Part shown: one piece after another, positions 10,384-35,866 of the stretch
Layout: every line of letters begins with the position of its first letter
How positions within the stretch are numbered: position 1 is the first letter of the stretch
Source: Pseudarthrobacter sp. NamE2
GTDB taxonomy: Bacteria > Actinomycetota > Actinomycetes > Actinomycetales > Micrococcaceae
Assembly (NCBI RefSeq): GCF_005796205.1
Contig: NZ_VAHN01000006.1
Span: 62,001-126,000 of the forward strand
Direction of reading: 5' to 3'
Length of the DNA: 64,000 bases
Made by a program: the position numbers and the translations under genes
Notes under the pieces: model-generated
What the model saw: only the letters and a program-made list of their open reading frames with translations
Database searches by the model: none
What the model was told of the DNA's origin: nothing

Positions 10384-10404
10384 TTTTGCAGATTTTCTGC
10401 AATA
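10384..10404. promoter_or_regulatory. Candidate ROK operator, oxidase promoter
   Basis: TTTTGCAGA-TTT-TCTGCAATA is an inverted repeat with a 3-bp spacer (8 of 9 half-site positions pair). It lies between the divergent ROK gene and the oxidase gene. The same geometry occurs at 15368-15388. Confidence 0.65.
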
Positions 10405-10471
10405 CTACTGTTGGTATCGATCCGGACGGGGCATCGCCGCCCCGCCCTCGTGAGACTTCAATGGAGAAACC

Positions 10472-12079: not shown

Positions 12080-12181
12080 CAAGTCGGTCGGGCGGCAGCC
12101 CCACCGACCTCTTTCCTAAGATCCATCTGTCCCTCGCCGCGGTCACGGCCCGGCGAGCACAACGAAGTGTTTGGAGTAGAT

Positions 12182-17580: not shown

Positions 17581-17936
17581 ACACAAGGAGGCACTCCGCC
17601 TCTTACGCTCTTACGCGTTGCTTTCGCTGCAGCGCAGAAGGGCAACGAGGGCCGCCAATCTCGCCGTTCCATGCCGCGAGCATCCGACGGCATCAGCGCC
17701 GGCAGCGCGTCTCGCGCGTTGGGGTTGTTGACGAGCGGAGAAGCCCGACCATCATTGCGGTCTCGGCCTCCCTTGCGCGATCCCGCGCCACCTCCAGCTG
17801 CCAGAGCGCGCCCATGCCGTGGTGGTGCGGTACAGCAGATGCTGGATTCTCGCCTCATTAAGGGGTCGGGGCAAACGCTCCGTCAAGCTCCGGCCACGGG
17901 AACTATTGCACATCGACGGCACAGGCAGGGGAGAGG
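17581..17936. other. Intergenic, left flank of broken recombinase
   Basis: No gene is supported. The part next to the pseudogene (about 17890-17936), read on the minus strand, resembles the sequence after the intact recombinase near 35145-35170 (CTCCCCTGCCTG..GCCGTCGATGTGC). The duplicated segment therefore extends past the stop codon. Confidence 0.45.
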
Positions 17937-18448
17937 CTACTCCAGCTTGGCCTGGCGCAGGTACTGGTAGACAGTCGCCCTGCTGGTCCCGTAGTCACGG
18001 GCAAGAACGGCTTTCGGGACACCGTTACCGGCGCGCCGAACTAGGTCTGCCGCCCGCTCCGGGGCGAGGGTCTTTTCCGCCCTCTCTAGGCGCCGCGCTG
18101 CTTGGCCAGGGCGATGCCCTCCCGCTGTCGTTCCCGGATGAGCGAGCGTTCGAATTCAGCGAAGGCATCCATGACGGAGAGCATGAGGTTGGCCATGGGG
18201 GAGTCCTCGCCGGTGAAGACCCGGCTCTCCTTGACGAACTCCACCCGCCGGCCCTTGCGGGTGAGTCCCTGGACAAGAGCACGCAGGTCATCGAGGTTCC
18301 GGGCGAGCCGTTCCATGCTGTGCACAAACCATCGTATGAAGATCCGGTCCAGAACCTGGCGTTCGAGCTGGCGTTTCTCGTTCTGGTCCAGCATGCTCAC
18401 GCGCGCATACCCGATCCGCTGTCCAGTCACCGGTGCCTCCACCCTCAT
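17937..18448 (-). pseudogene. Serine recombinase (resolvase/invertase) pseudogene
   Basis: Close relative of the intact recombinase at 34576-35142. The N-terminus (TGQRIGYARVSMLDQNEKRQ) keeps the catalytic serine. About 25-30 codons around the DKASGRDTSRPELTELL segment of the intact copy are deleted. The reading frame then hits a TAG straight after AKQRGA where the intact copy has Tyr, and a single-base loss follows. The C-terminal helix-turn-helix (RAGNGVPKAVLARDYG) is still readable in the shifted frame down to a TAG at 17937. It is non-functional. Confidence 0.88.
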
Positions 18449-18539
18449 CCTTTCAGGTTGAGTTCTAGGCCCCTCTCAGCCCACGGCCACGAGGATCACC
18501 ATGCACTGGCTGTGGATGGTGGCGGGGCCGGAATTAAGC

Positions 18540-18576
18540 GCAATGCCCCGTCCGCTGAGGGCGGACGGGGCATTGC
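18540..18576. terminator. Hairpin terminator after the CE12-PL11 gene
   Basis: A perfect 16-bp GC-rich stem (18540-18555 with 18561-18576) and 5-base loop lie 30 bp beyond the stop of the lyase gene. There is no long T-run, so termination strength is uncertain. Confidence 0.65.
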
Positions 18577-18605
18577 AGTTTCACCCGAGGTTGAATGCGC
18601 GGGGG

Positions 18606-21600
18606 CTAGCCGGCGCGGCGGGTGTAGACGATGTCCGGCTGGCCCGGCAGTTCCATGCCTTCACCGATGTAGAAGCCCGGGTGCGGCGGCTGGTTGTAGG
18701 AGATGTTCTCCCGGGCCACAGACAGGCGGTACACCGGATCGTGCATGAGTGTCCGCAGGCGGACATCGGTGCCGGCTGTGGTGGTGTAGATCCGCAATTC
18801 CGTGCTGTCTGCTGACGGCCAGGCAATCTCTTCCCGCCAGTCACCGAGGAGGTCGGCCTGGATGGCAGGGTTGCCCTTGGTGCTGTTGTTGGTTTTTGCC
18901 CCGGTCGCGGTCAGCAACCGGTCGCTGGATTCGGTCTCCCAGTTCCACTTGGCGATGCTGGGCGTGCCTGTGTTGGTGGCAGCGTTCCAGTCATGGTCCA
19001 CGATCTCGCGCAGCAGGTCGCCGTCCCACCAGGCCAGGAAGTTGGCTGCAGGGATCTTGTTGGCGATCAGTTCGCCCTTAGCCGAGCGGAGCTCACCAAC
19101 GGGGGAGTTCCACGCCGCGTCGCCGCCGATGGCCCAGCCTTCGGCACCCGGGTGGCGGGGGTCGATGTCTCCGGCAGCAGCGCGTCCGGTGTCCTTGGTG
19201 GCCGGGATGCTCCAGAGCACTTCACCTGTCCGTGAATCCCGGAACGTAGCGCCCTTGTTGCCGCTTGAGCCCATGTCCTCGTGGGCGGCGAAGGTCTCCA
19301 GTCCTGGGCGGGACGGATCAAGGTCACTGGTGTGGATGGCGTCGCCGTGGCCGAGGCCGGTGGTGTACAGCGGCTTGCCGTTGTCGTCGATGGTCATGGA
19401 CCCGAAGACGAACTCGTCCTTGCCGTCGGCGTCCACGTCAGCCACGGAGAGGTTGTGGTTGCCCTGGCCCCGGTACTGGGCACCGGCGGTGTCGGAATCG
19501 AAGATCCAGCGCTTGATGATCTTGCCATCCACCAGGTCGTAGGTGGCCAGCACCGTGCGGGTGTAGTAGCCGCGGCTGAACATCATGGAGGGCCGCTCGC
19601 CGTCGAGGTAAGCCACGGCGCCGAGGAAGCGGTCCACGCGGTTTCCGTAGGTATCGCCCCAGGCTCCAACGTCCCCCCGGGGCGGGTCGTAGGCCACGGT
19701 GTCCATCACGGTGCCGGTGGCACCGTGGAAGACCGTGAGGAACTCCGGTCCCGTGAGCACGTAGCCGCTGCTGTTGCGGTAGTCAGCTCCGGCGTTACCG
19801 ATGACGGTTCCGGCACCATCACGCGTGCCGTCCGCGGTCTTCATGGCAACCTCGGCCTTGCCGTCGCCGTCGAAGTCGTACGCCAGGAGCTGGGTGTAGT
19901 GGGCGCCGGCACGGATGTTCGGGCCCATGTTGATCCGCCAGAGCTTGGTGCCGTCCATGCGGTAGGCGTCCACGTAGACGGTCCCGGTGTAGCCTGCCTG
20001 TGAGTTGTCCCTGGAATTGGACGGGGACCACATCTGGATGACTTCGTAGGTCCCGTCGCCGTCCAGGTCCGCCACGCTGGAGTCACCTGCGGAGTAGCTG
20101 TAGGGCTGGCCGTCCTTGGTGTAGTCGTCTGCAGGCTTGTCCAGCTTGACTGCCAGATAGTCCTGCGCCAGCGGGGTGAACTCACCGGTCAGCTGGTCCC
20201 CGCCGTTGCCGACGCTCTTAATGACGTAGCGGGAAGCCGCTGTGCCTGATGAGTCCAGGAAGGTAGTGCTGTTCCGGATCGGCTCTTCGGTGAGCTGGAC
20301 GCCGTCGCGGATGACATGGAACCCGATCTGTTCGGGGTCCAGGCCCAGCATGCGCCAGCCCACCCGTACGCCCTGGTCGGTCAGCAGGGCCACGGGGGCG
20401 CGGTCCAGCTGCTCCATCTGCCGGTTAATAACGGTGACCTTCTCTGTTCCCACCACGGGGGAGGGCACGGATTCGCCGCCCTTGTTCACGGTGGTGACCC
20501 GGTAGTAGTACTTGATGGTGGTCAGCACGGTGTAGTCGGTGTAGTTCACTTCGCCGGCGCGGCCCACGTATTCGAAGGGGCCCTCGGGCGAGGTGGAGCG
20601 GTAGATTTGGTAGGCGGCGGCATCGGCCACCTTCTGCCATTTCAGGGTCACGCTGGTCTTTTCCACGGCCTTGACGTCCACCTTGAGGGGCGCGGCGGGA
20701 ACCGGGGTGTTGGGATCTACCAGGGCGGTCTCGACGGTGTTGGAGGGAACGGATTCCAGGCCGGTGCTGTCCAGCGCCGTGACGAAGTACTTGTACGTCA
20801 GGCCGGCAAAGGCAGTGGTGTCCTGGAAAGATGGTGCCGTGACGTTTTCGGCCACCAGCGAAGGCTCGGCCTCAAACGATGCCTGGCGGAACACCTTGTA
20901 GCCGGCGGCGTCCGTCACGGGGTCCCAGGCAAGGTCGACCACTGGAGGTTCGGCGGCTGCATTAACGGCCGTGGTGTGCAGGTTGGTGGGTCCCACCAGC
21001 AGGGGGGTGACCTCCAGGCCGTTGAGCCGCTGGCCGGAACCGCTGATGGTCAGGTTCAGCTGCCCGTCGGAGACCAGGACCTGGTTGATGATTTTGGTGG
21101 CGGAGGAGGACCGGCCGGAGGAGACCTGGCCGTAGGGGGTGCCCTCGGCGGCAACATCGGTGCGGGTGGAGCCGATCCAGTCGCTGTGGTACGTCTTCAG
21201 CGCATAGGTGCCGTTGGGCACGTCCAGCTTGAACTCGAAGCTGGAGCTGCTCAGGACGAAGTCGCGCAGGAGATTGGTGGTCACGGCGCCCCGGTCCCGG
21301 TCGCTGAGTACCGCGGTGTCCTTGAAGCCGAAGCCGCGCTCAGGGGTGTAGGCCATGGTCCGGTTGACTTCGGTGTAGCCGGGCTCGAGAGGCGCCCCTA
21401 CGGGCCCAAAGTCGAACTTGTACTTCGCCTGCTTCGTGGTCACCGCCAGGGTGTCGCTGGGCTCGGAGAGTCCCTTGCCGTTCATGGCAGCCACCCGAAC
21501 ACTGTAGGCGGTACCTTCGGCGAGACCGCCCAGGTTGGCGGTGGGGACAGTTGAGGTGGTGGTCAGCGTGAAGGCGCTGTCCGGCTCGGAGGCCAGCTTG

Positions 21601-23000
21601 CGGTACACCTTGTAGATGTCCGCACCCTCAACGGGCTGCCACTTCAACAGTGCGCCGGCGTTGGAGACGCTGCCGGCCACGAGTCCCTGCGGTTTGGCCG
21701 GAACGGACGACGGCGGTGCGATTTCCTTGACCCGTGATGCCAGCGGGACGCTGAGCTGCTTCACGCCTTCGGCGACCAGCCGTGCGATCTGGATGGCGCC
21801 GTATTCCTGGAAGTGGGTGTTGTCCACGGTTCCGGTGGGACGGTTGGGGTAGACGCCTGCATCAACATGGAGGAACACCGATTTTGTGTCTTCCGGGCCG
21901 ATGGCATCGTAGTAGGCGCGGCTGGAGGCCGAAAGGTCCACCAGCCCCACGTTTTCCTCAGCGGCGAGTTCGTGCACCTTGGCGACGTACTCAGGGAAGC
22001 TGACCCGGAACTTGCCGGTTGATTCGTCGAAGTCGCGGCGGCCTACGGGCGTGACCAGGACGGGTACGGCACCGCGCTGGCGGGCGCCGTGGACGTAGGT
22101 CCGCAGGTATTCCTTATAGTCAGCGGGTGAGGCGTAGCGGTCGTCCACCCCGACGGTGGCGTCGTTGTGGCCGAACTGGACCATCAGGTAGTCACCGGGG
22201 TTAATCACGCGCAGGATCTCATCCAGCCGGCCCTGGCTGATGAAGTTCTTGGAACTGCGGCCGCCGATGGCGTGGTTCTTGAAGGAGACCCGGTCATCGA
22301 AGTACCGGTCGATCATCTGGCCCCAGCCGGCCTGCGGGACGTATCCGGCGTCGTAGGTCTGGACGGTGGAGTCGCCGGCGAGGTAGACGCCGGGGTCCGC
22401 GGTTGCCGTGCGGGGAGCCCGGGCGGCGATCACCAGGGAGTTGATCTTCGCAGCTGTTCCGCTGAAGTCCAGGTTAAGCTGGCCGTCCACCAGGGAGATG
22501 GGGAATTCCATTTCAAGGTACTGGCCGGCAGGCTTGTCGGTGGCCTGTACCTTGGCCATCTTCTCTGCAGTAATGGCGATGTTGGTCGCCTCGGTGGCGT
22601 CGCCGGCGATGAGCTTGACGGTGTAATCGCCGTTGGGCAGGTCCACCAGGAAGCTGCTGTCCTGGGCCTGCACGAAGTCGGACCGCAAGGGGTCACCGGT
22701 GCCGCGGTCGGCCCCCGAGGTGACAGCGGTATCAGTGAAGCCGAACTTTGCCGCGGCGGAGTACTGGGTGCCTGCTTCAATGCGGGTGTAGCCTTCGGCC
22801 GTGGCACCGGGGCCGAAGTCGAATTTGAATCCGCTTCCCACCGGCGGCAGGGCGGTGTCGGCATGGACCGCCGGCAGCCCGGTGAAGGCGATGGCAGCGG
22901 AAGCCACCGCGGCGGTGACCGCCTTGGTGCCTCTGGCCAGCCTGCGGCCTGGCGGCGGCGCTTCCTTCGACAACGGGGGCACTTGCGGGGGTATATGCAC
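18606..23000 (-). CDS. Secreted rhamnogalacturonan acetylesterase (CE12) - rhamnogalacturonan lyase (PL11) fusion
   Basis: A 1464-residue secreted protein. Signal peptide about 1-47 (GLPAVHA-DT). A beta-sandwich follows at about 58-195, then an SGNH/CE12 esterase at about 204-415 with S211 (AGDSTV), G246 (IGGRSS), N279 (FGHND) and D393/H396 (DNTHF). Next come a fibronectin-III-like domain, a second beta-sandwich, two more Fn3-like domains, and a PL11 lyase from about 855 to the end (VINRQMEQLDRAP, ADLDGDGTYEV, YDFDGDGKAEV, GQGNHNLSVADVD). It should deacetylate and cleave the rhamnogalacturonan I backbone outside the cell. I chose GTG 23000 because AAGGAG lies 6 bases upstream; the ATG at 23006 touches that ribosome site. 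Confidence 0.93.
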   Translation of the reverse strand: MHIPPQVPPLSKEAPPPGRRLARGTKAVTAAVASAAIAFTGLPAVHADTALPPVGSGFKFDFGPGATAEGYTRIEAGTQYSAAAKFGFTDTAVTSGADRGTGDPLRSDFVQAQDSSFLVDLPNGDYTVKLIAGDATEATNIAITAEKMAKVQATDKPAGQYLEMEFPISLVDGQLNLDFSGTAAKINSLVIAARAPRTATADPGVYLAGDSTVQTYDAGYVPQAGWGQMIDRYFDDRVSFKNHAIGGRSSKNFISQGRLDEILRVINPGDYLMVQFGHNDATVGVDDRYASPADYKEYLRTYVHGARQRGAVPVLVTPVGRRDFDESTGKFRVSFPEYVAKVHELAAEENVGLVDLSASSRAYYDAIGPEDTKSVFLHVDAGVYPNRPTGTVDNTHFQEYGAIQIARLVAEGVKQLSVPLASRVKEIAPPSSVPAKPQGLVAGSVSNAGALLKWQPVEGADIYKVYRKLASEPDSAFTLTTTSTVPTANLGGLAEGTAYSVRVAAMNGKGLSEPSDTLAVTTKQAKYKFDFGPVGAPLEPGYTEVNRTMAYTPERGFGFKDTAVLSDRDRGAVTTNLLRDFVLSSSSFEFKLDVPNGTYALKTYHSDWIGSTRTDVAAEGTPYGQVSSGRSSSATKIINQVLVSDGQLNLTISGSGQRLNGLEVTPLLVGPTNLHTTAVNAAAEPPVVDLAWDPVTDAAGYKVFRQASFEAEPSLVAENVTAPSFQDTTAFAGLTYKYFVTALDSTGLESVPSNTVETALVDPNTPVPAAPLKVDVKAVEKTSVTLKWQKVADAAAYQIYRSTSPEGPFEYVGRAGEVNYTDYTVLTTIKYYYRVTTVNKGGESVPSPVVGTEKVTVINRQMEQLDRAPVALLTDQGVRVGWRMLGLDPEQIGFHVIRDGVQLTEEPIRNSTTFLDSSGTAASRYVIKSVGNGGDQLTGEFTPLAQDYLAVKLDKPADDYTKDGQPYSYSAGDSSVADLDGDGTYEVIQMWSPSNSRDNSQAGYTGTVYVDAYRMDGTKLWRINMGPNIRAGAHYTQLLAYDFDGDGKAEVAMKTADGTRDGAGTVIGNAGADYRNSSGYVLTGPEFLTVFHGATGTVMDTVAYDPPRGDVGAWGDTYGNRVDRFLGAVAYLDGERPSMMFSRGYYTRTVLATYDLVDGKIIKRWIFDSDTAGAQYRGQGNHNLSVADVDADGKDEFVFGSMTIDDNGKPLYTTGLGHGDAIHTSDLDPSRPGLETFAAHEDMGSSGNKGATFRDSRTGEVLWSIPATKDTGRAAAGDIDPRHPGAEGWAIGGDAAWNSPVGELRSAKGELIANKIPAANFLAWWDGDLLREIVDHDWNAATNTGTPSIAKWNWETESSDRLLTATGAKTNNSTKGNPAIQADLLGDWREEIAWPSADSTELRIYTTTAGTDVRLRTLMHDPVYRLSVARENISYNQPPHPGFYIGEGMELPGQPDIVYTRRAG

Positions 23001-23049
23001 GGACATCTCCTTCGATGAACTCTGGCAAGACGATACCCAGGCGGGGATC

Positions 23050-23064
23050 TGGAACGATTCAAAA
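23050..23064. promoter_or_regulatory. Candidate operator upstream of the CE12-PL11 gene
   Basis: Read on the minus strand, TTTTGAATCGTTCCA matches CTTGTATCGTTTCAA at 26018-26032 at 11 of 13 core positions. A LacI-type site shared by the pectin-enzyme genes is inferred. Confidence 0.35.
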
Positions 23065-23307
23065 CGAGGCCGCCGGACAGCGGATGTCGATTTTGGTGGG
23101 TTCCGGGTTGGACCGTGGATTGAAGCGAGACCTGGGTGGGGTGATGCGACCCTGTAAGGTTTATCAGCCCCGAGCCCATGCTGGCAACCGTTTTCCCAAC
23201 TTTCCCGGGAGTTTTTGGTATTGAATGTTCCTGCTTGTTCGGCCGAAAAATCCGTACTGGGGGAGCTCTTCACACTGGCATGGGCGGGGTGTGTACCGGT
23301 TAAACAG

Positions 23308-23345
23308 CGACGGCGGATGCGCACCGAAGTGCCCATCCGCCGTCG
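23308..23345 (-). terminator. Hairpin terminator after CE12-like gene
   Basis: A 12-bp perfect stem (CGACGGCGGATG at 23308-23319 with 23334-23345) lies just beyond the stop codon of the upstream esterase gene. It is followed on the minus strand by CTGTTTAACC. Confidence 0.65.
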
Positions 23346-23378
23346 TGTGTTTTGCCGGCTTGCGCCGGAATTATTTCC

Positions 23379-24647
23379 CTAGAAACTGCTGAGGATGCCG
23401 GTGTCTTGAGGCGCGCTGGTCAGGTAGGTGAACTCATCCATTCCTTGGTCCTGCAAATTTTGAACGACGAGCTTCGCCAGGACAGTGGCCCCATCCCGAT
23501 TGAAGTGCAGCCAGTCACCCGTGGTGTAAAGGGACGCGGTCTCGACCGGGCCGATCGAAGTGAAGTAGGCGGAACTGAGCACGTTGAGATCCACGAGGTC
23601 AACACCCTGCTCCTCCGCCAAGGCAATCATGGCCGGCCGGTACATGGCCTGCTCGGCATTGTGCACAGGAGTTCCATTTTCATCCGTCGTCCAGGAGATT
23701 GATCGCCCCTGCGCAGTCACGAGGACGACTGTCGCTCCGGTGCTCTTCACCGCCGACACGGTCTGACGCATGTAATCCTGGAATTGAGCCGCTGAATAAG
23801 CCTTCTCGTCGTTAATCCCCATCTCGAGAAGGAAGTAGTCGCCAGGTTTGGCGTACTTCAGAATCGTATCGAGCGATCCTCCTTGGAGGAATCCCTTGGC
23901 AATCTGCCCCGCGGAGGCCATGTTGCGGACGTTGAGAACGTCTGGATTCACAAGCTCCGGCACAATCTGACCCCAGCCGACCATTTCGTCGGCATCTTTG
24001 GGATAGTAGTTCGTGACCGTTGAGTCACCTCCAAGCCAGACCGTCGCGGGCAACTGTGGATCCTTAGAGACGTGGGTGATGACCATCGCCGACAGCGTGT
24101 GCGCCGCATTCTGACCCGGGACGACCGAAAGGTTTAGTTGCCCGTCGGTTATGGGTATGAGAAAGGAATCCTGGGCGTTAACACCTGTCAGATTCAGAAG
24201 TTGATATACGCCTTCAGCCGCCACACTCGATCTGTTCGTATCTCCCAACATAACCTGGACGCGGTAGAGACCTTTGGGTAGGTCCACATTGAAGGTGTTC
24301 GGGCTGGCCGGTGCGGACTTCAAGAACCGGACAGCAGTCGCTCCCACCCCTGAGCCGGTCGCCGAGACATCAGTCATGTCTTGCGGCGTGTTGAACCCGT
24401 ACCCTGTCGCGGAATCATATGCATCGGCAGCACTCACGTTGGTGTAGCCGGACACCTCCGGGCCTGCGCCGAAGTTGAACTTCGTAGCTACGGCCGCGGC
24501 TTCTACCTTGCCCTGTTGTTGGCCGGGTTGCACTGCCGAGGCCTGGCCGGTGCCCATGATCGGCCCTAAGAACGCTGCGACCGCCAAACCCACGAGGAGT
24601 ATCTTGGCCTTCGCTGGGATGTGTCCGAGTTGCGTTACCGATTTCAT
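23379..24647 (-). CDS. Secreted CE12-like SGNH esterase (rhamnogalacturonan acetylesterase family)
   Basis: A 422-residue protein with a signal peptide (hydrophobic 15-30, cleavage near GQASA at about 38). An N-terminal beta-sandwich (FNFGAGPEVSGYTNVSAADA) precedes the SGNH domain: S209 (GGDSTV), G near 247 (ASAGQ), N279 (MGIND) and D378/H381 (GDWLHFN). It is likely to remove acetyl groups from pectic polysaccharide outside the cell. AAAGGGAAG precedes the ATG. It closely resembles the next upstream esterase, so the pair looks like an old tandem duplication. Confidence 0.9.
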   Translation of the reverse strand: MKSVTQLGHIPAKAKILLVGLAVAAFLGPIMGTGQASAVQPGQQQGKVEAAAVATKFNFGAGPEVSGYTNVSAADAYDSATGYGFNTPQDMTDVSATGSGVGATAVRFLKSAPASPNTFNVDLPKGLYRVQVMLGDTNRSSVAAEGVYQLLNLTGVNAQDSFLIPITDGQLNLSVVPGQNAAHTLSAMVITHVSKDPQLPATVWLGGDSTVTNYYPKDADEMVGWGQIVPELVNPDVLNVRNMASAGQIAKGFLQGGSLDTILKYAKPGDYFLLEMGINDEKAYSAAQFQDYMRQTVSAVKSTGATVVLVTAQGRSISWTTDENGTPVHNAEQAMYRPAMIALAEEQGVDLVDLNVLSSAYFTSIGPVETASLYTTGDWLHFNRDGATVLAKLVVQNLQDQGMDEFTYLTSAPQDTGILSSF

Positions 24648-24788
24648 CTTGTCTTCCCTTTCAAGCGTTTTCCGATCGCTTTGTCCGCTACCACGACCTG
24701 ACCACTGATGCCGGCGGGAACCGCCACAGGGTCACCAGTGTGGAGTCGGTGTTCATGCACCTCTTTGGTCGTCAGGACTCGCGTCCCT

Positions 24789-25970
24789 TTAGAGTCCCTG
24801 CCTCTTCAGGTCCTCTGCGACCAGCCGGGCCAGCTCAGCGGCGCCCGCGCGGTTGGGGTGGAGCGAGTCACCGGTCATGTAGAGGGCAAGGGTGGCCTCC
24901 GGGCCAATCTCGGTGAAGTACGCCGAAGCCAGGACGTTCAGGTCTACTAACGGGATGTTCTCTTCCGAGGCCAGTGCCACGGTGGAGTTCCGGTACCAGC
25001 GGTTCACTGAGGTGTGGACCCCTTCGGCGTTGAAGTCCGTAGCGCGGCCCTGCGGGGTGACCAGCACCGGCGTTGCTCCGGTAGCTGCCACTTGCTGGAC
25101 CATGTCCCGCATGATCTCCTTGAACTCGGCCTCAGTGGTGGCATTCTTGGCGGCGGTGTCGTTGATGCCCATTTCCAGCAGGAAGAGGTCGCCCGGCTTG
25201 ATGTACTGCAGCACGGCCTCGAGCTGGCCGTCGTTTCGGAAGCCCCGGGCGATCTGGCCGCCGGTGGCCATGTTCCGGATATCAAAGGCTTCCGGGTCAA
25301 CGTACTGCGGCAGCATCTGGCCCCAGCCTCCCTGGACACTGGATTCGAGCGGGTAGTAGCTGGCCACGGTGGAGTCCCCGCCCACCCAGATGGTGGGGTC
25401 CATTTCCGGGTGGCGAGAGACCTTCTCAATCTCCAGGGCGCTCAGGGTGAAGGCGGTGCCCACTTTGCCTTCGGTTACCAACAGGTTCAGCTGGCCGTCC
25501 GTCACCGGTATCTCGAAGGAGTCCTTGGCGCCGTTCCCGGTGAGGTTCATCGCCTGGTAAACGCCCTCAGCGGCGATGCTCGCGCGGGAGGTGTCGCCCA
25601 GGGTGACGGACACCTTGTACAGGCCCTCCTTGAGGTCCACGTTGAACGTGTTGGCGCTCTTGGTGCCGAATTGCAGGAAGCGCACGGCGTCGCTTCCCGC
25701 GCCGGCCCCCTTGGCGGGGACGTTCACCATGTGCTCGGGGGTGTTGAAGCCGTAACGCTTCTCCGGGCTGTAGGTGTCGACGGCGCTGACGCCGATGTAA
25801 CCTTCTTCCACCGGTCCGTTGCCGAAATCGAACCTGTAGTTGCTGGGTTCCGCATTGGCTGCGGGGGCCGCCAGGCTCACGCCCAAGCCACTCAAGAGCA
25901 TGACTGCGGCCATGCCCCCGGCAAGGGTTTTCTTGGACTTGCTAGTTGAATGCTTAGCACTACCGAGCAC
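24789..25970 (-). CDS. Secreted CE12-like SGNH esterase (paralogue)
   Basis: About 393 residues. The signal peptide ends near PAANA (about 40). The N-terminal sandwich (YRFDFGNGPVEEGYIGVSA) and SGNH domain (S200 in GGDSTV, GIND, GDSLHPN) follow the same plan as the neighbouring esterase. The start is ambiguous in the same way as the PL11 fusion: AAAGGAG abuts an ATG at 25976, while GTG 25970 has ideal spacing, so I chose the GTG. A possible LacI-type site lies at 26018-26034. It is the first gene of the likely esterase transcription unit. Confidence 0.88.
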   Translation of the reverse strand: MLGSAKHSTSKSKKTLAGGMAAVMLLSGLGVSLAAPAANAEPSNYRFDFGNGPVEEGYIGVSAVDTYSPEKRYGFNTPEHMVNVPAKGAGAGSDAVRFLQFGTKSANTFNVDLKEGLYKVSVTLGDTSRASIAAEGVYQAMNLTGNGAKDSFEIPVTDGQLNLLVTEGKVGTAFTLSALEIEKVSRHPEMDPTIWVGGDSTVASYYPLESSVQGGWGQMLPQYVDPEAFDIRNMATGGQIARGFRNDGQLEAVLQYIKPGDLFLLEMGINDTAAKNATTEAEFKEIMRDMVQQVAATGATPVLVTPQGRATDFNAEGVHTSVNRWYRNSTVALASEENIPLVDLNVLASAYFTEIGPEATLALYMTGDSLHPNRAGAAELARLVAEDLKRQGL

Positions 25971-26017
25971 GTTCATCTCCTTTGATAACGCGTGGAACTG
26001 CAACCACAACGCCGGGC

Positions 26018-28435: not shown

Positions 28436-28481
28436 CCAATGTCGTGTGTCCTTACCGGGCACTCCCCCGCCCATTTCGCCG

Positions 28482-28507
28482 CGCCGATAATAAAGATTCT
28501 GTAAACC
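28482..28507 (+). repeat. Dispersed 26-bp element, copy A
   Basis: CGCCGATAA, nine variable bases ending TTC, then TGTAAACC. It lies between the M23 and pRiA4b genes. Copies B and D have the same 9-9-8 spacing. Confidence 0.6.
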
Positions 28508-28550
28508 TGGAGTTCGATGACAGGGGAGAGGTCTCGGTCTCCGGGCAAGA

Positions 28551-29228
28551 ATGCGGCCTGAAAGAATGGCCTGCATGGAGAACGGTAACGCCGCCATGGG
28601 TGCGAAACCAGAGTCGATGCTGGAGGTTCGGGTGGAGCTGGTTGACAGCGAGCCGAAAATCTGGCGCCAGCTCGAGGTCCGCGGCTCCCTGACGCTGGAC
28701 CAGGTGCACCAGGTCCTGCAAGCGGCATTCGGGTGGGAAGACATGCACCTGCACAGGTTCACAGCCGATGACCCCTTCGCGCCACTGCGGCCGGTGAACG
28801 GTGAAGTTCCGGAAGCCCTGCAGTGGCTTCCACGGCGGGAGTGTGACGAACCGGGCGAGAGGCCGGAGGAAGATTTCTCCCTTGAACAGTTGCTGGCGCT
28901 GGGCGCCGGAGCAGCGTTTTATGAATACGACTTCGGTGACAACTGGCTGCACCGGCTCGAGCTGGTCACGCAGAGTCCCGCGAACGAAGGCACCCCGCCG
29001 GCCAGTGTGATCGATGGTGCCCGTCGCGGCCCATTGGAAGACTCCGGAGGATTTCCAGGGTACGAAGAGATCCTGGAGGCGCTGGCCGACCCGGCCCATC
29101 CGGACCACGCTGAGTACTCAGAATGGGTGGCAGAAATTACCGGTTCGGCTGAACCTTTTGACCCCGCCTTCCTCGACATCCCGGCACTGAACCAAGCGTT
29201 GATCGCCCAAGTTCAAGTGCGTGAATAG
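28551..29228 (+). CDS. Plasmid pRiA4b ORF-3 family protein
   Basis: Up to 225 residues. Family motifs are clear: LEVRVELVDSEPKIWRQLEV, LDQVHQVLQAAFGWEDMHLH, FYEYDFGDNWLHRLEL and CPP-less SVIDGARRGPLEDSGG, then GYEEILEALADP. The family is common on plasmids and near transposon resolvase genes, but its function is not established. Several ATGs (28551, 28566, 28575, 28596) could start it and none has a clear ribosome site, so the N-terminus is uncertain. It is flanked by copies A and B of the dispersed element. Confidence 0.85.
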   Translation: MRPERMACMENGNAAMGAKPESMLEVRVELVDSEPKIWRQLEVRGSLTLDQVHQVLQAAFGWEDMHLHRFTADDPFAPLRPVNGEVPEALQWLPRRECDEPGERPEEDFSLEQLLALGAGAAFYEYDFGDNWLHRLELVTQSPANEGTPPASVIDGARRGPLEDSGGFPGYEEILEALADPAHPDHAEYSEWVAEITGSAEPFDPAFLDIPALNQALIAQVQVRE

Positions 29229-29586
29229 CAAGCGAAAAGCCCCACCGCGATACCGGAATGCAACCCCTTCTGGGGCCGCTCTCCCGGCCATTTTCGAACG
29301 CCGATAACTGACCTTATGTAAAGCTAGCGCCGATAGGGGCTCACTCGTGGTGGGCCGTGACGATGCCGTTCGCTCGCTACGCGCTGTGTGAGGCCCCGGA
29401 CTCTGTAGTCGCACTGTTCGGATCCGTCCCTAAAGGCGTATGCGAACCTTTGGCTCATGCCGCATCCGTGTGATGAGTTCAGCCGGAAGAATGCCAAGAC
29501 AAGGGCGAACTGTATAGACTCACTGGTTTCTAAATTATCCAGAGGTCATAGCTACGATTGCACGCAGCTATTGCAAGACGGTCACC
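29229..29586. other. Intergenic with dispersed element copy B
   Basis: No gene is supported. Besides element B it holds an arm CCGGCCATTTTCGAA just before the element that resembles CCGCCCATTTCGCCG before copy A. Confidence 0.45.
29299..29324 (+). repeat. Dispersed 26-bp element, copy B
   Basis: CGCCGATAA, CTGACCTTA, TGTAAAGC. It is followed directly by a second GCGCCGATA (29327-29335). Confidence 0.6.
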
Positions 29587-29787
29587 CTACCGCGACGTCC
29601 TGTCTGTGCGTTGTGATGCAGACGAACCGGAGGTCCGAGGACGGAAAGCAAACACGTCACTCCCGTCTCGTGAGGTGCCGCCGTTACCGCTCGACCCTTC
29701 AGTCTGCCGCCGTTCTTTCTCGACTTGTAATGCCTTAGCACGAAGCTGACGGACGAGCTCACGCGAATGTTTGCGATCTGTGCTCAT
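29587..29787 (-). CDS. Small hypothetical protein (66 aa)
   Basis: A hydrophilic protein starting MSTDRKHSRELVRQLRAKAL, with a charged helix at about residues 5-32 and a Ser/Thr-rich tail. Its ATG overlaps the TGA of the upstream gene (ATGA), which is the main reason to believe it is translated. I do not recognise a family. Confidence 0.5.
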   Translation of the reverse strand: MSTDRKHSRELVRQLRAKALQVEKERRQTEGSSGNGGTSRDGSDVFAFRPRTSGSSASQRTDRTSR

Positions 29788-30407
29788 TGGACACCTCCCT
29801 TCGTTTCAATACTGCCATCATCTTCAGTATCCATACTCTCGAGAGCATCAGCAACGGCAAAAGCGATGTCAGTGTCTTCTTGGCCGGCCCAAGGATGTCC
29901 GACCAAGCCGATCATACTCACCACCCCGACATCTCTAGTCTTGGGGTCAAGTGCTCTTTCTGTCGCCCAAGTGAATCGGTCCCACCACTGAGCACGGAGG
30001 TCCGCCTTCTCACGTTGCAGGCGGTCCTGTTCGGCAGCGTGGTCACGCTGCTGGCGGTCTTGTTCAGCAGCTTGTTCACGTTGTTCGCGGTCTCTCAACG
30101 CATTCTGCCCGGCTCGATGACTGCTGTATGCGGCTGCACCAAATGCTACTCCAGCAGCCGCTAATGCCATGACCCCGCCGAAACCGGCAGAGGTGAAAAA
30201 AGCTCGCCAAAAGTCGTTGTCCAAGACAAAGGGCGGGAAAAGACGGCCTAGAACTGCTCCTGCTAATAGGCCACTCGCCAAACTCAGCAAGATAACGCAT
30301 CGTTTCGAAACCCAAAATGCCTGGATCTTTTCTTTCTTGGTGGGTACATGCACTGCGCCAACACTGGACGCCTCAGGGGTTCCCGCTGGGTCTGGATCTG
30401 TGGTCAT
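29784..30407 (-). CDS. Membrane protein with charged coiled-coil (unknown)
   Basis: A 207-residue protein. Two hydrophobic segments (about 35-58 and 68-95) are followed by an Arg/Gln/Glu-rich coiled coil with DREQREQAAEQDRQQRDHAA-type repeats (about 105-140). A cytosolic tail contains WWDRFTWATERALD and IGLVGHPWAGQEDTDIAF. No known family comes to mind. The architecture, anchor then coiled coil then small C-terminal domain, together with coupling to a 66-residue ORF and its place beside PIN-like and AIPR genes, makes a defence or stress role possible but unproven. Confidence 0.6.
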   Translation of the reverse strand: MTTDPDPAGTPEASSVGAVHVPTKKEKIQAFWVSKRCVILLSLASGLLAGAVLGRLFPPFVLDNDFWRAFFTSAGFGGVMALAAAGVAFGAAAYSSHRAGQNALRDREQREQAAEQDRQQRDHAAEQDRLQREKADLRAQWWDRFTWATERALDPKTRDVGVVSMIGLVGHPWAGQEDTDIAFAVADALESMDTEDDGSIETKGGVQ

Positions 30408-30845
30408 TCTGCCGTGCCTTCAGTTAACGCTGTACAGGTCTTAGCCACCAGCGTGGGCGCCGATGGGACCGGGGTGGACCTGAGTAGAGCTGCTTGAGTT
30501 TTTATAACATCTACCTATTCGGGGCTTCTCGGCCTAACCGCCACGCGGGACAAGTTACGTTCGAGACCTCCGCGTTCCAGGCTCCTCCCCTTGTTCACTT
30601 GCTTGGCTATATTCGACGTCTTAGCAAGCGACAGTTTTTGCGCGACGGCGGCCGTCGCCGGTGTGCCTGGTGCTTTGCTTGGTGACCAGCAAGACAAGGT
30701 AAGCGAGATGCAGCCGCCCACCCGTTCGCGGCGCCATTGAAATCACAACAGGAAAGCCGATTGATGGTCGCTGACCTGATGCCTACAACCGGAGGCCGTG
30801 AGAAGGCAAAGCGTCAGCAATCTCCTACTTGGCTAGCATCAGATC
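30408..30845. other. Intergenic, 438 bp
   Basis: No supported gene, hairpin or repeat. It separates the divergent membrane-protein and PIN-like genes and presumably carries both promoters. Confidence 0.4.
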
Positions 30846-32225
30846 ATGCATAACGATGCCACATCCCCCGACTACGCCAGTGTCCGGGCGATTGCTCTCG
30901 ACGCCAATGTTTTTAAGAGCGCTCCCGGGATCAGTGCGCTTAGCTCCCTTGCTGAGCGCGCAGATACACACGGTCGCGTTGAAATCTGGATAGCGGACAC
31001 AGTCATTTGGGAATGGGGGCAGCATTTGCACGAAACGCACGTCGCGTTAAGGGTAGCCGCCAAGAAGTTGCGGGCTGCAGGCCTATGGGCGAAGGATCCT
31101 GGAGACCTTTCGGCACATGATGTCGCCGGCCAGCTTTTGGACCGAATCAGGGGGCTGGGGCGAAGCGTACGAGTGGTAGACACTTCCCCGTTTGCGCACG
31201 AGGCGCTAAGAGACCAGATCCTGCTAGAGGGGCCGGGCAAGCGCAAAGGAGACGTGAAGACTGGAGCAGCCGACAGCGCTCATCTCAGGGCGTATCACGC
31301 ACAAGCGTCTTTCCAAGAAATAAGTTACCTCCTGGTTTCGGCTGACGGAGACGCTCTAACGGCCCACGAGCGATGGGGACATGAAACACCGCCCAGCATC
31401 ATGAAAAGCCTGACAAGAGCGGCCGAGGCTGTCTTTCATTCTGTACCAAGTAACGCTGCGGGCGTGCAGTTGGCGCTTAGCGTGGCGTTGGACGCATCTT
31501 CCCTCCTAAAAGACGTGAGTATAGGTGGCGCGGAGCTCGGATATGCCCTTGACCACGCCCCCGAAGATGGCCTGTCGATGGAGGTGAATGCCGAGGCCGC
31601 TAGGTTCGTAGGTCTGGTTCATACCAAACAAGATCCAACCGCCGTAACGTTTACCGCTCTGTATCTTGCCGACGTGAAAGTTGTTGGGGCAGCGTTCAAT
31701 TGGAATCCTGTGCCGCAAGAAGTGACCGTTAGCAACGCCTTGCTGCGTGTTCAAGTTTCCATCCCCCAGGGCTCCGCATCTTCTAAGGACGCGGTGGTAA
31801 TCAATTGCGACATGACGGCTCCGGTCGCCGGACCGTGGAATGCGCCGCGAGAGGCACTGGATGATATTTGGACCGCTCTGTCCTCGATACCCGGAGTTGC
31901 CGGCGTTACGGACGGCGGCTGGCCAAGCGCAGAGGACCTGTCGCTTCTTTCCAAAGTCACCCTCGGGATCGGGGGTGAGGAGTTGACCCTGGATCTGATG
32001 GGTTCTGGATTTCACGCGTGGGAGCTCAGGTGCACGTACCGCGGGCAAGAACAGCATTTACTCTGTTACGAGGCGGGTGAGGGCTACGCTGACTCCGAAA
32101 ATGGCACTGTCACTGTGCCCTTCTACGGGATAGCCGTATTGGGAACGCCGGAATGGTCCGAACACGCTGAGTATGGGCTCAACGAGTTCATCTTTCGAGT
32201 AGGCATCCCGGGGCTGACTCAGTAA
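30846..32225 (+). CDS. PIN-like domain protein with unknown C-terminal domain
   Basis: A 459-residue protein. The N-terminal ~190 residues look like a PIN-type nuclease: D19 (IALDANVF), E56 (TVIWEWGQH), D143 (TGAADSAHLRAY) and D167/D169 (LVSADGDAL) form an acidic set in the right order. The C-terminal ~260 residues are beta-rich and not recognised. PIN proteins are RNases of toxin-antitoxin and defence systems; with no antitoxin-like gene beside it, the partner is unclear. It is convergent with the AIPR gene, leaving about 300 bp between them. The ribosome site is weak. Confidence 0.65.
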   Translation: MHNDATSPDYASVRAIALDANVFKSAPGISALSSLAERADTHGRVEIWIADTVIWEWGQHLHETHVALRVAAKKLRAAGLWAKDPGDLSAHDVAGQLLDRIRGLGRSVRVVDTSPFAHEALRDQILLEGPGKRKGDVKTGAADSAHLRAYHAQASFQEISYLLVSADGDALTAHERWGHETPPSIMKSLTRAAEAVFHSVPSNAAGVQLALSVALDASSLLKDVSIGGAELGYALDHAPEDGLSMEVNAEAARFVGLVHTKQDPTAVTFTALYLADVKVVGAAFNWNPVPQEVTVSNALLRVQVSIPQGSASSKDAVVINCDMTAPVAGPWNAPREALDDIWTALSSIPGVAGVTDGGWPSAEDLSLLSKVTLGIGGEELTLDLMGSGFHAWELRCTYRGQEQHLLCYEAGEGYADSENGTVTVPFYGIAVLGTPEWSEHAEYGLNEFIFRVGIPGLTQ

Positions 32226-32533
32226 ACGGAGTGGCAGGCGCTTAGGAAGTGACTCCTAGGGTTCAAGTCCGCCTCGTTCGAGTATTTTCTTGGGCGTCAG
32301 TGTGCGGCCGTTTTCGAGGTTTCGACCAGCGGTGGTTCTTGAGCAACGGCGGCCGTGGCAAATGTGTGCCCGAGAGGTTTCACACTCCCCTGCCTGGTTA
32401 CACCTGGTTTCCGTGAGCGCTGATAGCCCAGTATGTAAAGCTGGCGCCGAGAGAGGCTCGCAGGGGCTCGTGTTTAGCATAATTGAATGGCACATCCCCA
32501 GGCCTGACCTCAGACATCTTGGATCTCCATGGA
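32226..32533. other. Convergent intergenic region with dispersed element copy C
   Basis: It holds copy C at 32418-32441, preceded by CTCCCCTGCCTGG (also found after the recombinase at 35145-35160). A tRNA-like GGGTTCAAGTCC near 32258 has no proper stem. No gene is supported. Confidence 0.4.
32418..32441 (+). repeat. Dispersed element, copy C (divergent)
   Basis: CGCTGATAG, seven bases, TGTAAAGC; two bases shorter than copies A, B and D. The right flank (TGGCGCCGAGAGAGGCTC) matches that of copy B. Confidence 0.5.
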
Positions 32534-34252
32534 TTAAGCAACAGCAACCCTTCTAGGGCTGGACGACAGGTACGTCTTGGCCCTGTTCAGCAGCTGGATA
32601 GTTACGTCACCGTCTTTTGCAACCCGGTCCAACATCACTTCTCGGCGTCGGCGTGCCCCATCCGCGAATTCGGCTCGAACAAGTTTGAGGAGCTCATTGA
32701 GCTCTTCGGTGTCCGGGAACTCAGTAATTTCAGCGATGTCCACAGCTGTTGGGCGGTTTTTTCGCGTTGCGGCGATGGTCGCCAGCATCGTCAGGTGGAA
32801 ACAGAGGTCCTCTACCTGACCCCGGGTACTCTCCTCTTGGCGCAAGAAATCCTCGCATACTCTCTGGATTCGGATAGCGGAGAGATATGCCCCGATAGGA
32901 TGCGTGGGGACAAACAAGAGGTCGTAGATTTCATCCTCAAAGACTCTGCTTACTTGTCCCCTAGCTACATGGGGCATTTGCACCAGGCTAGCCAGCAGGG
33001 CTTGGCCCATTTGGTCAATGGAAACTAGATCTTGGATGCGTATTCCCTTATTGCTGTACAAGTGTTTTCGACGTTCATAGTACAAACCATGTTGGAGCAA
33101 ATACTCCTCGATCTGACGCTGCACTTTGTCTGTTGCACGCAGCGAACTCAGACTCAAGCTAGTTTGACTGTTCGTCGCGCGAATGATGCGATCTCGAACA
33201 CGATCGTCTTCTGCCTGAATGATCTTAACCAAGACGCTGCGATTTTCCGGACTGGCCGAGGCATTGCGTCCTCGCTTGTAAATCTCGTGAGAAGTCTGCA
33301 ATCCATTGACAATTTGAGGTGACTCTAATTCCAGTAGCTTGTTTGCTGGCTGGACGCGGTGGGCGACGATCGTAACGCCATTGTTGAGCCACCAAAAGTC
33401 GACGTTCTCATCATGCTTTTCCAGCGTTGATTGGATACTTCGATTGACCGTTGTTTCGCCTTCGTAGTCCCGCACATTGGCTTCAAACAGCGAAGCGTCC
33501 AAGTTTCCGATTTCATCCGTGATGAACTTTTCATACTCATCCAAACGCACGACACCGATGTAACCTCCAGCCGTATCCGTGGATATCGGGTTCTCGGCCA
33601 AGGCTAGGCATCGCGTAACAGATGGCTTCTCACGAGCCATGTCGGAAAGGGCAGAGGCGTCCAAGAAGTCGATTTGAGGAACACAAGCACCAAAAGAATT
33701 TTTCAGTGCATCTGCAATTAGCGTCGACTTCTCTACGGTGTTCGGATGCAAGTGCTCGGCTTTGAGCGCGACGAAACACGTGAGAATCCGAAGGGAGGGC
33801 ATTTCAAGGGCACGATAGGCATCCAAAAACCTTCGCGTTATCTCGAGCACTCGAGGATTAAGTGTCCTCGCAAGCTTCTCCTCGCTCCTGCTGAAGTCCA
33901 AAAGGCGCGGAAGGTTGACGACGAGCTTGTCTATGGCAGATTCGCCAAATCCCTTGGTGTTCTTAACCTGCAAGATGACTAGGTCGAGTTGCGCGTTGCG
34001 GCCAAATCCCTTCAATGGGGTGTCATCGCGGATGCAAAAGCCGTTTACAAACATATAGAGAGCATCAATTCCTCCGTCCTGCGCGCCGTCGACGATCCCG
34101 GACAGCAAGTCGTCGTGGGTGGCATTGAAGTGGCGAAGATACTGTTTTGCAGAAAAGTACGTTTCGTGCTCAGTCTCACTCAGAGCCGGGATCGTTTCGG
34201 CTCGAGCACGAGTGAGCATGTCGGCCAGAAGAACGACGTCATTGCTGGTCAT
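32534..34252 (-). CDS. AIPR-family (abortive infection phage resistance) protein
   Basis: A 572-residue protein. The AIPR core is distinct: RDYEGETTVNRSIQSTL, WLNNGVTI (288-294) and PQIVNGLQTS (312-321). The N-terminal ~130 residues carry D63 (GGIDALY) and Q95-x-K97 (LVILQVKN), compatible with a PD-(D/E)xK-like nuclease fold. AIPR proteins are linked to abortive infection against phage. I chose the ATG at 34252 because GGGGGA lies upstream; earlier ATGs lack ribosome sites. It lies inside the block with dispersed elements and recombinase genes, convergent with the PIN-like gene. Confidence 0.82.
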   Translation of the reverse strand: MTSNDVVLLADMLTRARAETIPALSETEHETYFSAKQYLRHFNATHDDLLSGIVDGAQDGGIDALYMFVNGFCIRDDTPLKGFGRNAQLDLVILQVKNTKGFGESAIDKLVVNLPRLLDFSRSEEKLARTLNPRVLEITRRFLDAYRALEMPSLRILTCFVALKAEHLHPNTVEKSTLIADALKNSFGACVPQIDFLDASALSDMAREKPSVTRCLALAENPISTDTAGGYIGVVRLDEYEKFITDEIGNLDASLFEANVRDYEGETTVNRSIQSTLEKHDENVDFWWLNNGVTIVAHRVQPANKLLELESPQIVNGLQTSHEIYKRGRNASASPENRSVLVKIIQAEDDRVRDRIIRATNSQTSLSLSSLRATDKVQRQIEEYLLQHGLYYERRKHLYSNKGIRIQDLVSIDQMGQALLASLVQMPHVARGQVSRVFEDEIYDLLFVPTHPIGAYLSAIRIQRVCEDFLRQEESTRGQVEDLCFHLTMLATIAATRKNRPTAVDIAEITEFPDTEELNELLKLVRAEFADGARRRREVMLDRVAKDGDVTIQLLNRAKTYLSSSPRRVAVA

Positions 34253-34575
34253 AAGATCCCCCATTTGAAGTGCTCCGAAAGGGCACTGTGCTGCATCAGC
34301 TATCTCCAAGATGATGCCACGCCCATGGGATTTGGGCCGGCAACGCGCCGAAAATTACTAGCCTAGATCTCCGAACGCCATCAGCGCCCCCCTTGCTCCA
34401 ATAGACACCAGCATCGACGATGAAGCTTCACCTCTATACGGGATTCAGAAGCTCTCGCAGACACCTGGACAAAGAGGTCAGTACACGCAGATCTGACAAC
34501 CGACTTGCGAGGTCTTGACTTCCTTGTAGGACGGCTCTAGAACTCAACCTCACAGGCAAAAGGTTGGAGGAAGCA
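34253..34575. other. Intergenic between AIPR and recombinase genes
   Basis: No gene is supported. The last ~40 bases (TCTAGAACTCAACCTC...) resemble the sequence upstream of the recombinase pseudogene at 18449-18475, so they belong to the recombinase module. Confidence 0.45.
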
Positions 34576-35142
34576 GTGTCCGGACAGCGGATCGGGTACG
34601 TCCGAGTAAGCACTCTTGACCAGAATGAGAAACGCCAGCTCGAAGGCCAGGTTCTGGACCGAGTCTTCACGGACAAGGCCTCCGGCCGGGACACTTCCAG
34701 ACCGGAGCTTACGGAGCTGCTGCGGTTCGCCCGGGATGGCGACACCGTAGTGGTTCACAGCATGGACCGGCTCGCCCGGAACCTTGATGACCTGCGGGCC
34801 CTTGTCCAGGGCCTCACCCAAAACGGTGTACGGGTGGAGTTCATCAAGGAGAGCCTGGTCTTCACCGGCGAGGACTCCCCCATGGCCAACCTCATGCTCT
34901 CCGTCATGGGCGCCTTCGCCGAATTCGAACGCTCCCTCATCAGAGAACGCCAACGGGAGGGCATCGCTTTGGCCAAGCAGCGCGGCGCCTACAAAGGACG
35001 GAAGAAGACCCTCACACCGGACCGGGCAGCAGAACTCGTCCAACGCGCCGGCACCGGTGTTCCGAAAGCACTTCTTGCCCGTGACTACGGGATCAGCAGA
35101 GAGACCGTCTACCAGTACCTCCGCCACGCAAAGTTAGAGTGA
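34576..35142 (+). CDS. Serine recombinase, resolvase/invertase family
   Basis: A 188-residue intact small serine recombinase. The catalytic serine is in IGYVRVSTLDQNE (about S12). RDTSRPELTELLRFARDGD and VHSMDRLARNLDDL are catalytic-domain motifs, FAEFERSLIRERQREG is the E-helix region, and residues about 145-188 form a helix-turn-helix (VPKALLARDYGISRETVYQY). The GTG at 34576 follows TTGGAGGAAGCA and is a better start than the TTG at 34564. Possible targets are the dispersed 26-bp elements; copy D lies 49 bp past its stop codon. Confidence 0.92.
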   Translation: MSGQRIGYVRVSTLDQNEKRQLEGQVLDRVFTDKASGRDTSRPELTELLRFARDGDTVVVHSMDRLARNLDDLRALVQGLTQNGVRVEFIKESLVFTGEDSPMANLMLSVMGAFAEFERSLIRERQREGIALAKQRGAYKGRKKTLTPDRAAELVQRAGTGVPKALLARDYGISRETVYQYLRHAKLE

Positions 35143-35190
35143 TCCACTCCCCTGCCTGGCCGTCGATGTGCCCTGGACCGCAAGCCATTA

Positions 35191-35216
35191 GCTTTACAGA
35201 ATATCCATTATCGGCG
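35191..35216 (-). repeat. Dispersed 26-bp element, copy D
   Basis: On the minus strand: CGCCGATAA, TGGATATTC, TGTAAAGC. The inverse orientation relative to A, B and C, and the position right after the recombinase gene, suggest a recombination or end site. Confidence 0.6.
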
Positions 35217-35866
35217 TTTGAGTGGGACGAGTAGAAGTAGATGAGACAACGCGTCCAAGCGGTTCATTGGGCGTTTTTCAACATCGGGCGTGATGTCTGC
35301 CCATCAGATGGTGCTGGGGTAGGCTGCGTGCAGCGTAGCCATGGGATCGCTAACGGTGTCGTCGTCTCGCTATCGGAAAGGGTCTTAGGACCATGAAGCT
35401 CGCTTGTATCGTTTGAGGAATCCGATGACCGGGGTCAACCCGCGGCCCTCCGGCGTGCATCCCCTGTTTCGTGGCGGTCGTTGGCGGGCCACCGGCAAAA
35501 CCAAAGTAGCAAACCGTAGCGCGGCCCCAAGTGCCGCGGACGCCGCACCAACGCTGTCGGCCGCGGTTTCAACGAAGTTTGGCAACCGAGCCGGTCGGCC
35601 AGCCATCCTGCTGGGCGATTGCAGGGAACAGGGCCACCGCAGAGCGCGTCTCCGGTACGCCCCGGTCCTTCGCGAGCGTGATCAACGGCGGTTGGAAAGG
35701 GTGACTGCAGCAAGATTATCCCTTTGCTGCCACCCTTCCCCGCCGGTGAACAGAAGCTTGAGGGCATGCAGTCGGGTTGGATGAGGAGTGTTCTGACATC
35801 GCTTACGTCCGGACTGCCGGATGCTTATGCGGCGGGAGAGGCGCGGCTCAGGGAAGAGCATTAAGA

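Follow-up and report, generated by a model that had tools for sequence, protein, structure and literature searches.

Whether neighbouring genes of a putative defence island form one system, or were brought together independently, is the question raised by a group of genes in Pseudarthrobacter sp. NamE2. The group lies in a 64,000-nt stretch of DNA (the window, to whose positions all coordinates refer) and comprises four open reading frames (ORFs), encoding a 66-residue protein, a 207-residue membrane-like protein, a PIN-fold protein and an AIPR protein of the AbiU family. All four were found at the positions given by the original prediction, which had put them forward as a possible undescribed defence island. 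A single new defence system is improbable, and the four look like unrelated passengers; within this Arthrobacter-group chromosome, the block is likely to be a short array of accessory modules bounded by copies of the host dif. The sites on which this reading is built are as follows.

28480-28507, forward strand: site 1, XerC arm CGCGCCGATAA, spacer TAAAGA, XerD arm TTCTGTAAACC; 17 of 22 arm positions
29297-29324, forward strand: site 2, AACGCCGATAA CTGACC TTATGTAAAGC; 19 of 22 arm positions
32418-32442, forward strand: site 3, degenerate, between the PIN and AIPR genes, CGCTGATAG CCCA GTATGTAAAGCT; spacer of 4 bp
35191-35218, reverse strand: site 4, inverted, AACGCCGATAA TGGATA TTCTGTAAAGC; 18 of 22 arm positions

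The architecture of these sites is that of an actinobacterial dif, in which a XerC arm, a 6-bp spacer and a XerD arm follow one another. The arm scores compare the two 11-base arms with the dif published for Frankia alni (CACGCCGATAATGCACATTATGTCAAGT, as given in PMC3025954), which makes them independent of the window's own sites; the next-best match in the window scores 15, and 20 shuffles of the window yielded 154 matches at 14, 25 at 15, three at 16 and none above. With respect to the two arms as well as to the spacing, the sites resemble dif more closely than expected by chance. Site 3 carries two mismatches on the XerC side and a spacer that is 2 bp short, while its XerD side has 11 of the 11 bases of site 2 and the sequence downstream of it recurs downstream of site 2 (89% over 28 nt); matches of its kind numbered 0 in 60 window shuffles, in a test that was shaped after the site had been seen. 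The candidate chromosomal dif of this genome (C1:269381) reads CGCCGATAATCTACATTATGTCAA and agrees with the Frankia dif at 21 of 22 positions. The recombination repeats that had been said to bound the block are real: they have arms at 29294-29326 and 35189-35221 in inverted orientation, with 82% complementarity across 33 nt, in which a variable middle separates CGCCGATAA from GTAAAGCTA. The original prediction mentioned neither the copy at 28480 nor the degenerate copy at 32418, nor the dif-like nature of the repeats.

Such sites are widespread among relatives, as seen in a sample of 150 genus genomes drawn evenly from a larger group. Sites of the chromosomal-dif form were found in 58 of 61 genus genomes, mostly once each, and a pattern restricted to the arms occurs in 433 copies in 145 of the 150 genomes, chromosomal dif included, with at least two copies in 99 of them; the reversed pattern, used as a control across the same 150 genomes, gave 0 copies. 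A first motif with the wrong gap length returned chance-level matches only, and the position weight matrix, having been trained on 77 sites that include those of the window, is not independent of them. Two genomes (G128 and G140) hold 13 and 17 strict dif-like sites, respectively. The host encodes XerD (C6:9824, 345.6 bits, above the curated cut-off) and a second recombinase (C2:155048) that best fits XerC, at 319.3 bits against a model cut-off of 335.15 and above the Xer subfamily cut-off. Judging from the sites, the host XerC and XerD would recombine the dif-like sequences, and cassettes would be exchanged between replicons via co-integration followed by resolution, or via excision.

The genes carried between the sites, and those of the block in particular, are listed below.

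28551-29228, forward strand: pRiA4b ORF-3-like gene, cargo of module 1 (Pfam PF07929, 3.9e-47)
29587-29787, reverse strand: 66-aa ORF, with a 4-base overlap with the 207-aa ORF
29784-30407, reverse strand: 207-aa protein with two hydrophobic segments, a charged coiled-coil-like stretch and a C-terminal QWWxRxxWAxxxAL domain
30846-32225, forward strand: PIN-fold protein, 459 aa, recognised by invariant residues and fold matches of its model
32534-34252, reverse strand: AbiU/AIPR protein, 572 aa (PADLOC AbiU, Pfam AIPR), with a possible TTG start at 34309
34564-35142, forward strand: serine recombinase of the resolvase/invertase family (Pfam Resolvase, 5.8e-37)

Read in this way, module 1 (28480-29324) would consist of the pRiA4b-ORF3-like gene between sites 1 and 2, module 2 (29297-about 32442) of the membrane/66-aa pair and the PIN gene between sites 2 and 3, and module 3 (about 32418-35218) of AbiU and the serine recombinase between sites 3 and 4. 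The PIN and AIPR genes, with the degenerate site 3 between them, would fall into different modules. Since the modules are bounded by sites, the apparent 'system' would be a neighbourhood made by recombination, in which each cargo gene probably acts alone.

Module 1 can be followed into Arthrobacter plasmids, where the pRiA4b-ORF3 module starts and stops at dif-like sites amid unrelated surroundings. Plasmids pJ340-114 (L191) and pTC2 (L218) share a 0.83-kb block that is 85% identical (L191:4997-5828 to L218:4998-5825) and differ in both flanks, and dif-like sites stand at both ends of the block (5003 and 5821 in pJ340-114, 5004 and 5818 in pTC2). A third plasmid, pJ337-114 (L219), has the left flank of pJ340-114 up to L191:4995 (95%) and its right flank from L191:5818 (89%); it is without the pRiA4b-ORF3 module, and the other DNA in its place has a dif-like site at its end (5857), at the right junction. 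At the left edge of the window's own module 1, similarity to plasmids starts at 28481-28482 in three records (L184, L189 and L191) and 15-130 bp inside the module in the other plasmid copies; at its right edge, similarity to the copies of P. ureafaciens pA and AT5, which are one lineage, stops at 29323, and that to the remaining copies stops within or just after the gene. The gene lies between two forward sites 814-825 bp apart in L185, L191, L218 and L235. The site-to-site length is 817 bp in the window, 818 in pJ340-114, 818 in P. ureafaciens (where the left site is degenerate), 814 in pTC2 and 825 in L235, and two further plasmids with a second gene inside the module have 1498 and 1599 bp; the eight regions compared for these lengths were picked because sites cluster there. 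In another region (L036, C15:11000-24000), a relative of the pRiA4b-ORF3 gene is split over two frames and has a dif-like site alongside. Modules 2 and 3 would have arrived in the same way as module 1.

The repeats could alternatively be crossover sites of the adjacent serine recombinase, acting as an invertase or resolvase cassette in which XerCD has no part, an explanation that we regard as unlikely. The recombinase has matches in 61 of the 150 genus genomes at E<=1e-60, and DNA invertases are among its distant relatives (NCBIfam). In 17 of 30 loci, among them the present one, a dif-like site lies 40-59 bp past the recombinase stop, and similarity to 10 of 32 other loci (L124-L152, L184, L188 and L190, with L186 and L187 repeating L127 and L130) stops at 35215-35221, which is the outer edge of site 4; in the remaining 22 it stops elsewhere, mostly just past the gene. 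Genomes with the resolvase also have more sites, with a mean of 4.30 per genome (n=61) vs 1.92 in those without it (n=89; Mann-Whitney 9e-10, kinship not corrected). Nevertheless, the 89 genomes without a match at this threshold still average those 1.92 sites, chromosomal dif included, and the sites have the arms of the chromosomal dif, 6-bp spacing and variable spacers. Moreover, no relative of the resolvase was detected in the module-bearing stretches of 10.7-10.8 kb of pJ340-114, pTC2, P. ureafaciens pA and AT5 (tblastn, E<=1e-3, run on these stretches). Further copies of this recombinase are a decayed one on the reverse strand of the window (17908-18468; 83-87% DNA identity, with an internal stop) and a full-length one in L036 (C15:11000-24000; about 91% protein identity).

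That the four genes constitute one multi-gene defence system, with the membrane pair as sensor or effector acting together with a PIN RNase and an AIPR nuclease, is very unlikely, even though the genes are adjacent and AIPR proteins are a defence family. Of the 150 genus genomes, 10 have a match to the PIN query and 14 to the AIPR family, this genome being counted in both; it is also the only one in which the two overlap, vs 0.93 genomes expected. Neighbourhoods were compared at 11 distinct PIN loci, at some of which the PIN match is partial, namely eight of 15-19 kb together with L095, L099 and L100 (the last of 3.5 kb). The eight represent eight of the nine PIN matches outside this genome, G072 with its 65-residue match containing a stop being left out, whereas the other three come from a scan of a species-genome collection in which three more loci repeat L069-L071. 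None of the 11 contains AbiU, the 207-aa, the 66-aa or the pRiA4b protein (tblastn, E <= 1e-3), and none of nine AIPR neighbourhoods, taken from 14 matches in 13 genomes outside this one, contains the PIN, the 207-aa or the 66-aa protein. Distant serine recombinases occur in two of the 11 PIN neighbourhoods (30-35%) and in two of the nine AIPR neighbourhoods. The repeated co-occurrence of the PIN, AIPR and coiled-coil families that had been proposed as a check is therefore lacking, both in the genome overlap (1/150) and in the neighbourhoods (0/11 and 0/9); in addition, the PIN and AIPR genes are convergent and the dif-like site 3 separates them.

In favour of one system, two of four plasmid AIPR loci do have a PIN-annotated gene within 5 kb of AIPR, on pA40H2 (along with restriction-modification genes) and on a Streptomyces plasmid. 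The PIN proteins of these two plasmids show no relation to the present one by BLASTP (E 2.5 and 0.78) and have no detectable relation to each other by the same method, and for the first of them, from pA40H2, the hhalign probability of a match to this PIN protein is 2%. PIN-type and AIPR-type genes are thus able to share islands, although these particular families do not do so as a unit. One defence system made from the four genes was accordingly rejected on the co-occurrence data: of the earlier reading, the AIPR defence protein and the bounding recombination repeats stand, and the single multi-gene system is not supported.

It is highly improbable that the repeats are the terminal inverted repeats of an ordinary transposon that has lost its transposase, for although an inverted pair with 82% complementarity exists (29294-29326 and 35189-35221), there are direct copies too (28480 and 29297), the sequence that separates the conserved arms is variable, the chromosomal dif has the same arms, and in several plasmids the pRiA4b-ORF3 module is bounded by such sites that are not inverted.

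Several observations weigh against an array of dif-bounded modules. Sites 1-3 are in direct orientation, unlike those of standard Acinetobacter modules, site 3 is degenerate, and the spacers of all four window sites differ (TAAAGA, CTGACC, CCCA and TGGATA). Under the identical-spacer rule for recombination between sites, as reported for Acinetobacter in passages of PMC13141974, the window sites would therefore not be expected to recombine with each other now, and their partners would lie elsewhere. The action of XerCD is deduced from the sites. The exchange between pJ340-114 and pJ337-114 is clean on one side only and is not fully explained, since neither pJ337-114 nor pJ349-116 has a recognisable dif-like site at its left junction (best score -26.9). 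No second occurrence of module 2 or 3 as a unit was found, and dif-like sites are absent from nine of nine AIPR and ten of 11 PIN neighbourhoods of relatives; the only one present is some 4.5 kb away from the PIN match of its locus. A search for an empty site found none: synteny of the right flank with G072 stops at 35725, and no counterpart of the window's left side was detected there. The association with the resolvase leaves room for the serine recombinase, which may act here too.

The setting of the block is chromosomal on its right, where the transporter gene that adjoins it is found on contigs of 3.1-5.4 Mb in four genomes (G072, G140, G058 and G067), and the window between 36000 and 60000 has no match in Arthrobacter plasmids. 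The GC content ranges from 49 to 59% within the block and, for the most part, from 58 to 67% immediately beyond it, a contrast that is weak evidence because values of 55-60% return at 26-27.6 kb, outside the block. To the left, at 8969-26009, the window carries genes for pectin and rhamnogalacturonan use (an RGL11 lyase, GDSL esterases, a GMC oxidoreductase and a sugar transporter); on plasmid NicSoilB11-2, the pRiA4b module likewise has genes for rhamnosidase and GMC oxidoreductase next to it.

With regard to the cargo, the AIPR gene alone gives a full-length match to PADLOC AbiU (1e-161, residues 4-559 on model positions 1-535 of 537) and the protein matches Pfam AIPR at 5e-41, which bears out its assignment to an abortive-infection defence family. 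AbiU is a named single-gene defence family (PADLOC PDLC02357, Pfam PF10592), to which the present protein conforms in its full-length profile match and in having no constant partner gene in the compared loci, and from whose examined relatives it differs in being at most 36% identical; phage protection is predicted for it here. The N-terminal nuclease proposed from D63 and a QxK motif also holds: G61, D63, Q95 and K97 are invariant in six AIPR sequences, this protein included, and residues 17-210 of its model (mean pLDDT 71.1) align with FokI in VIA-align (Z 9.0, root mean square deviation 3.3, 139 aligned residues). Lower rows for the same residues are Avs4 (7.7), MspJI (7.5) and HamA (6.5), and rows below Z 8 may reflect common arrangements. 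No Foldseek match at E <= 0.001 was obtained for the model, and phmmer against PDB sequences gave chance matches only. AIPR is described with a HEPN domain in a passage of PMC3506569, whereas the model of this protein supports a PD-(D/E)xK-like N-terminus, which is favoured over HEPN because of the FokI row and the invariant D63, Q95 and K97. AbiU would thus most likely be a nuclease effector that stops phage growth, with D63/Q95xK97 as its predicted active site. In the core of the protein, residues 227-366 align with ParB N-terminal domains (PadC 6.3, ParB 5.6), and this ParB-like alignment (Z 5.6-6.3) is a possible hint of nucleotide binding.

The PIN-like reading of the 459-aa protein was right, although no Pfam or NCBIfam model matches it below E 0.1. 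Residues D19, N21, E56, D143 and D167 are invariant in eight sequences (the protein and seven relatives), so that the acidic residues of PIN nucleases (D19, E56, D143 and D167) are kept in all eight. In a model of moderate confidence (mean pLDDT 67.8), the N-terminal 200 residues align with PIN domains of an exosome chain (5c0x_J, Z 11.1), SMG6 (2hww, Z 10.1, 136 aligned) and VapC4 (5h4g, Z 8.8). The C-terminal part of about 260 residues, modelled within the whole protein and not folded alone, is mostly beta, and residues 199-330 are weakly NTF2-like (Z about 7). The protein, a member of a rare family, is most likely a stand-alone RNase effector by prediction. A VapBC-type pair was considered and set low. 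VapC is far smaller than 459 aa, and no coupled ORF of at least 50 aa lies directly upstream of the gene; a 63-aa ORF on the same strand, at 30494-30685, may be a candidate partner. No PIN relative was confirmed in viral contigs. At L076:8415-8557, in a genome with no other match to the PIN query in the genus search, a closely related sequence survives as a short remnant (65-86% identity over 21-34 residues). The relatives in L072 and L073 are each followed, after 1.1 kb, by a large gene on the other strand that apparently encodes the same P-loop NTPase at both loci; this gene was read by eye, and none was seen in the window.

The membrane/66-residue pair appears unplaced apart from a widespread C-terminal motif. 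The hydrophobic segments and the charged stretch of the 207-aa protein were read by eye from the sequence, without a membrane predictor; its C-terminal part, with the QWWxRxxWAxxxAL motif, is matched in 66 of the 150 genus genomes, in small membrane-like proteins. Its top defence model is LeoBC, at E 0.02, and it has no match in plasmids. The 66-aa ORF has no family match and none in the compared loci or in plasmids, whole genomes not having been searched for it.

The closest known counterpart of the array is provided by the dif (pdif) modules of Acinetobacter, described in passages of PMC13141974 and PMC12907356 as small cargo units between sites of a XerC arm, a 6-bp spacer and a XerD arm like the host dif. 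The likeness extends to module arrays, exchange between replicons and chromosomal examples, to serine-recombinase and toxin-antitoxin modules, which are listed among the shared cargo, and to a host that encodes XerD and a best-fit XerC, the latter under the model cut-off here; exchange as a unit at the sites is seen for the pRiA4b-ORF3 module, on both sides in pJ340-114 vs pTC2. The differences lie in the actinobacterial host and dif sequence and in the cargo of AbiU, PIN and the membrane pair. Furthermore, the Acinetobacter modules, according to the same sources, belong to Rep_3/OrfX plasmids, as against a chromosome and Arthrobacter-group plasmids, those examined being mostly typed as conjugative. 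The right flank of the block is chromosomal; no search for repA or orfX was made. The published modules also alternate between C/D and D/C, whereas sites 1-3 of the window are all forward and only site 4 is reversed; CD fusion modules with direct sites are a described exception in Acinetobacter (passages of PMC13141974). In view of its departure from the definition in site orientation and replicon, the array is not counted as a member of the Acinetobacter system; it is in our analysis a variant that would work like dif modules.

Two other comparisons can be drawn. Integron gene cassettes resemble this array in being site-bounded, mostly single-gene units that are exchanged by a tyrosine recombinase, and differ from it in their sites, which are dif-like here. 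The XER modules of Antarctic Arthrobacter plasmids are likewise Xer-related mobile units with variable cargo, but are defined by XerD-like, XRE and XerC-like genes of their own (passages of PMC6305408); the term 'dif site' has 0 occurrences in the main text of that paper.

Beyond this locus, and with a confidence only a little better than even, we lean towards the view that the Arthrobacter group has its own genus-wide Xer/dif cassette system, which would move accessory genes between replicons by means of the host XerCD and would comprise hundreds of sites, often with one gene between direct sites. The proposed cargo of such cassettes, on plasmids and chromosomes alike, includes defence proteins, PIN nucleases, serine recombinases and pRiA4b-ORF3 proteins. 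A 2026 paper considers dif modules unique to Acinetobacter (a passage of PMC13141974), and among the matches listed from the open literature none reports them outside that genus; the Arthrobacter cassettes would then be a second, independent dif-module system outside Acinetobacter, made of singly excisable cassettes and offering a new route of defence-island assembly. If this is true, Xer-driven cassette shuffling either had more than one origin or is a widespread process that has been overlooked. Neighbours in a defence island may then be separate cassettes, and co-location alone, on which claims of a multi-gene system usually rest, would be misleading here.

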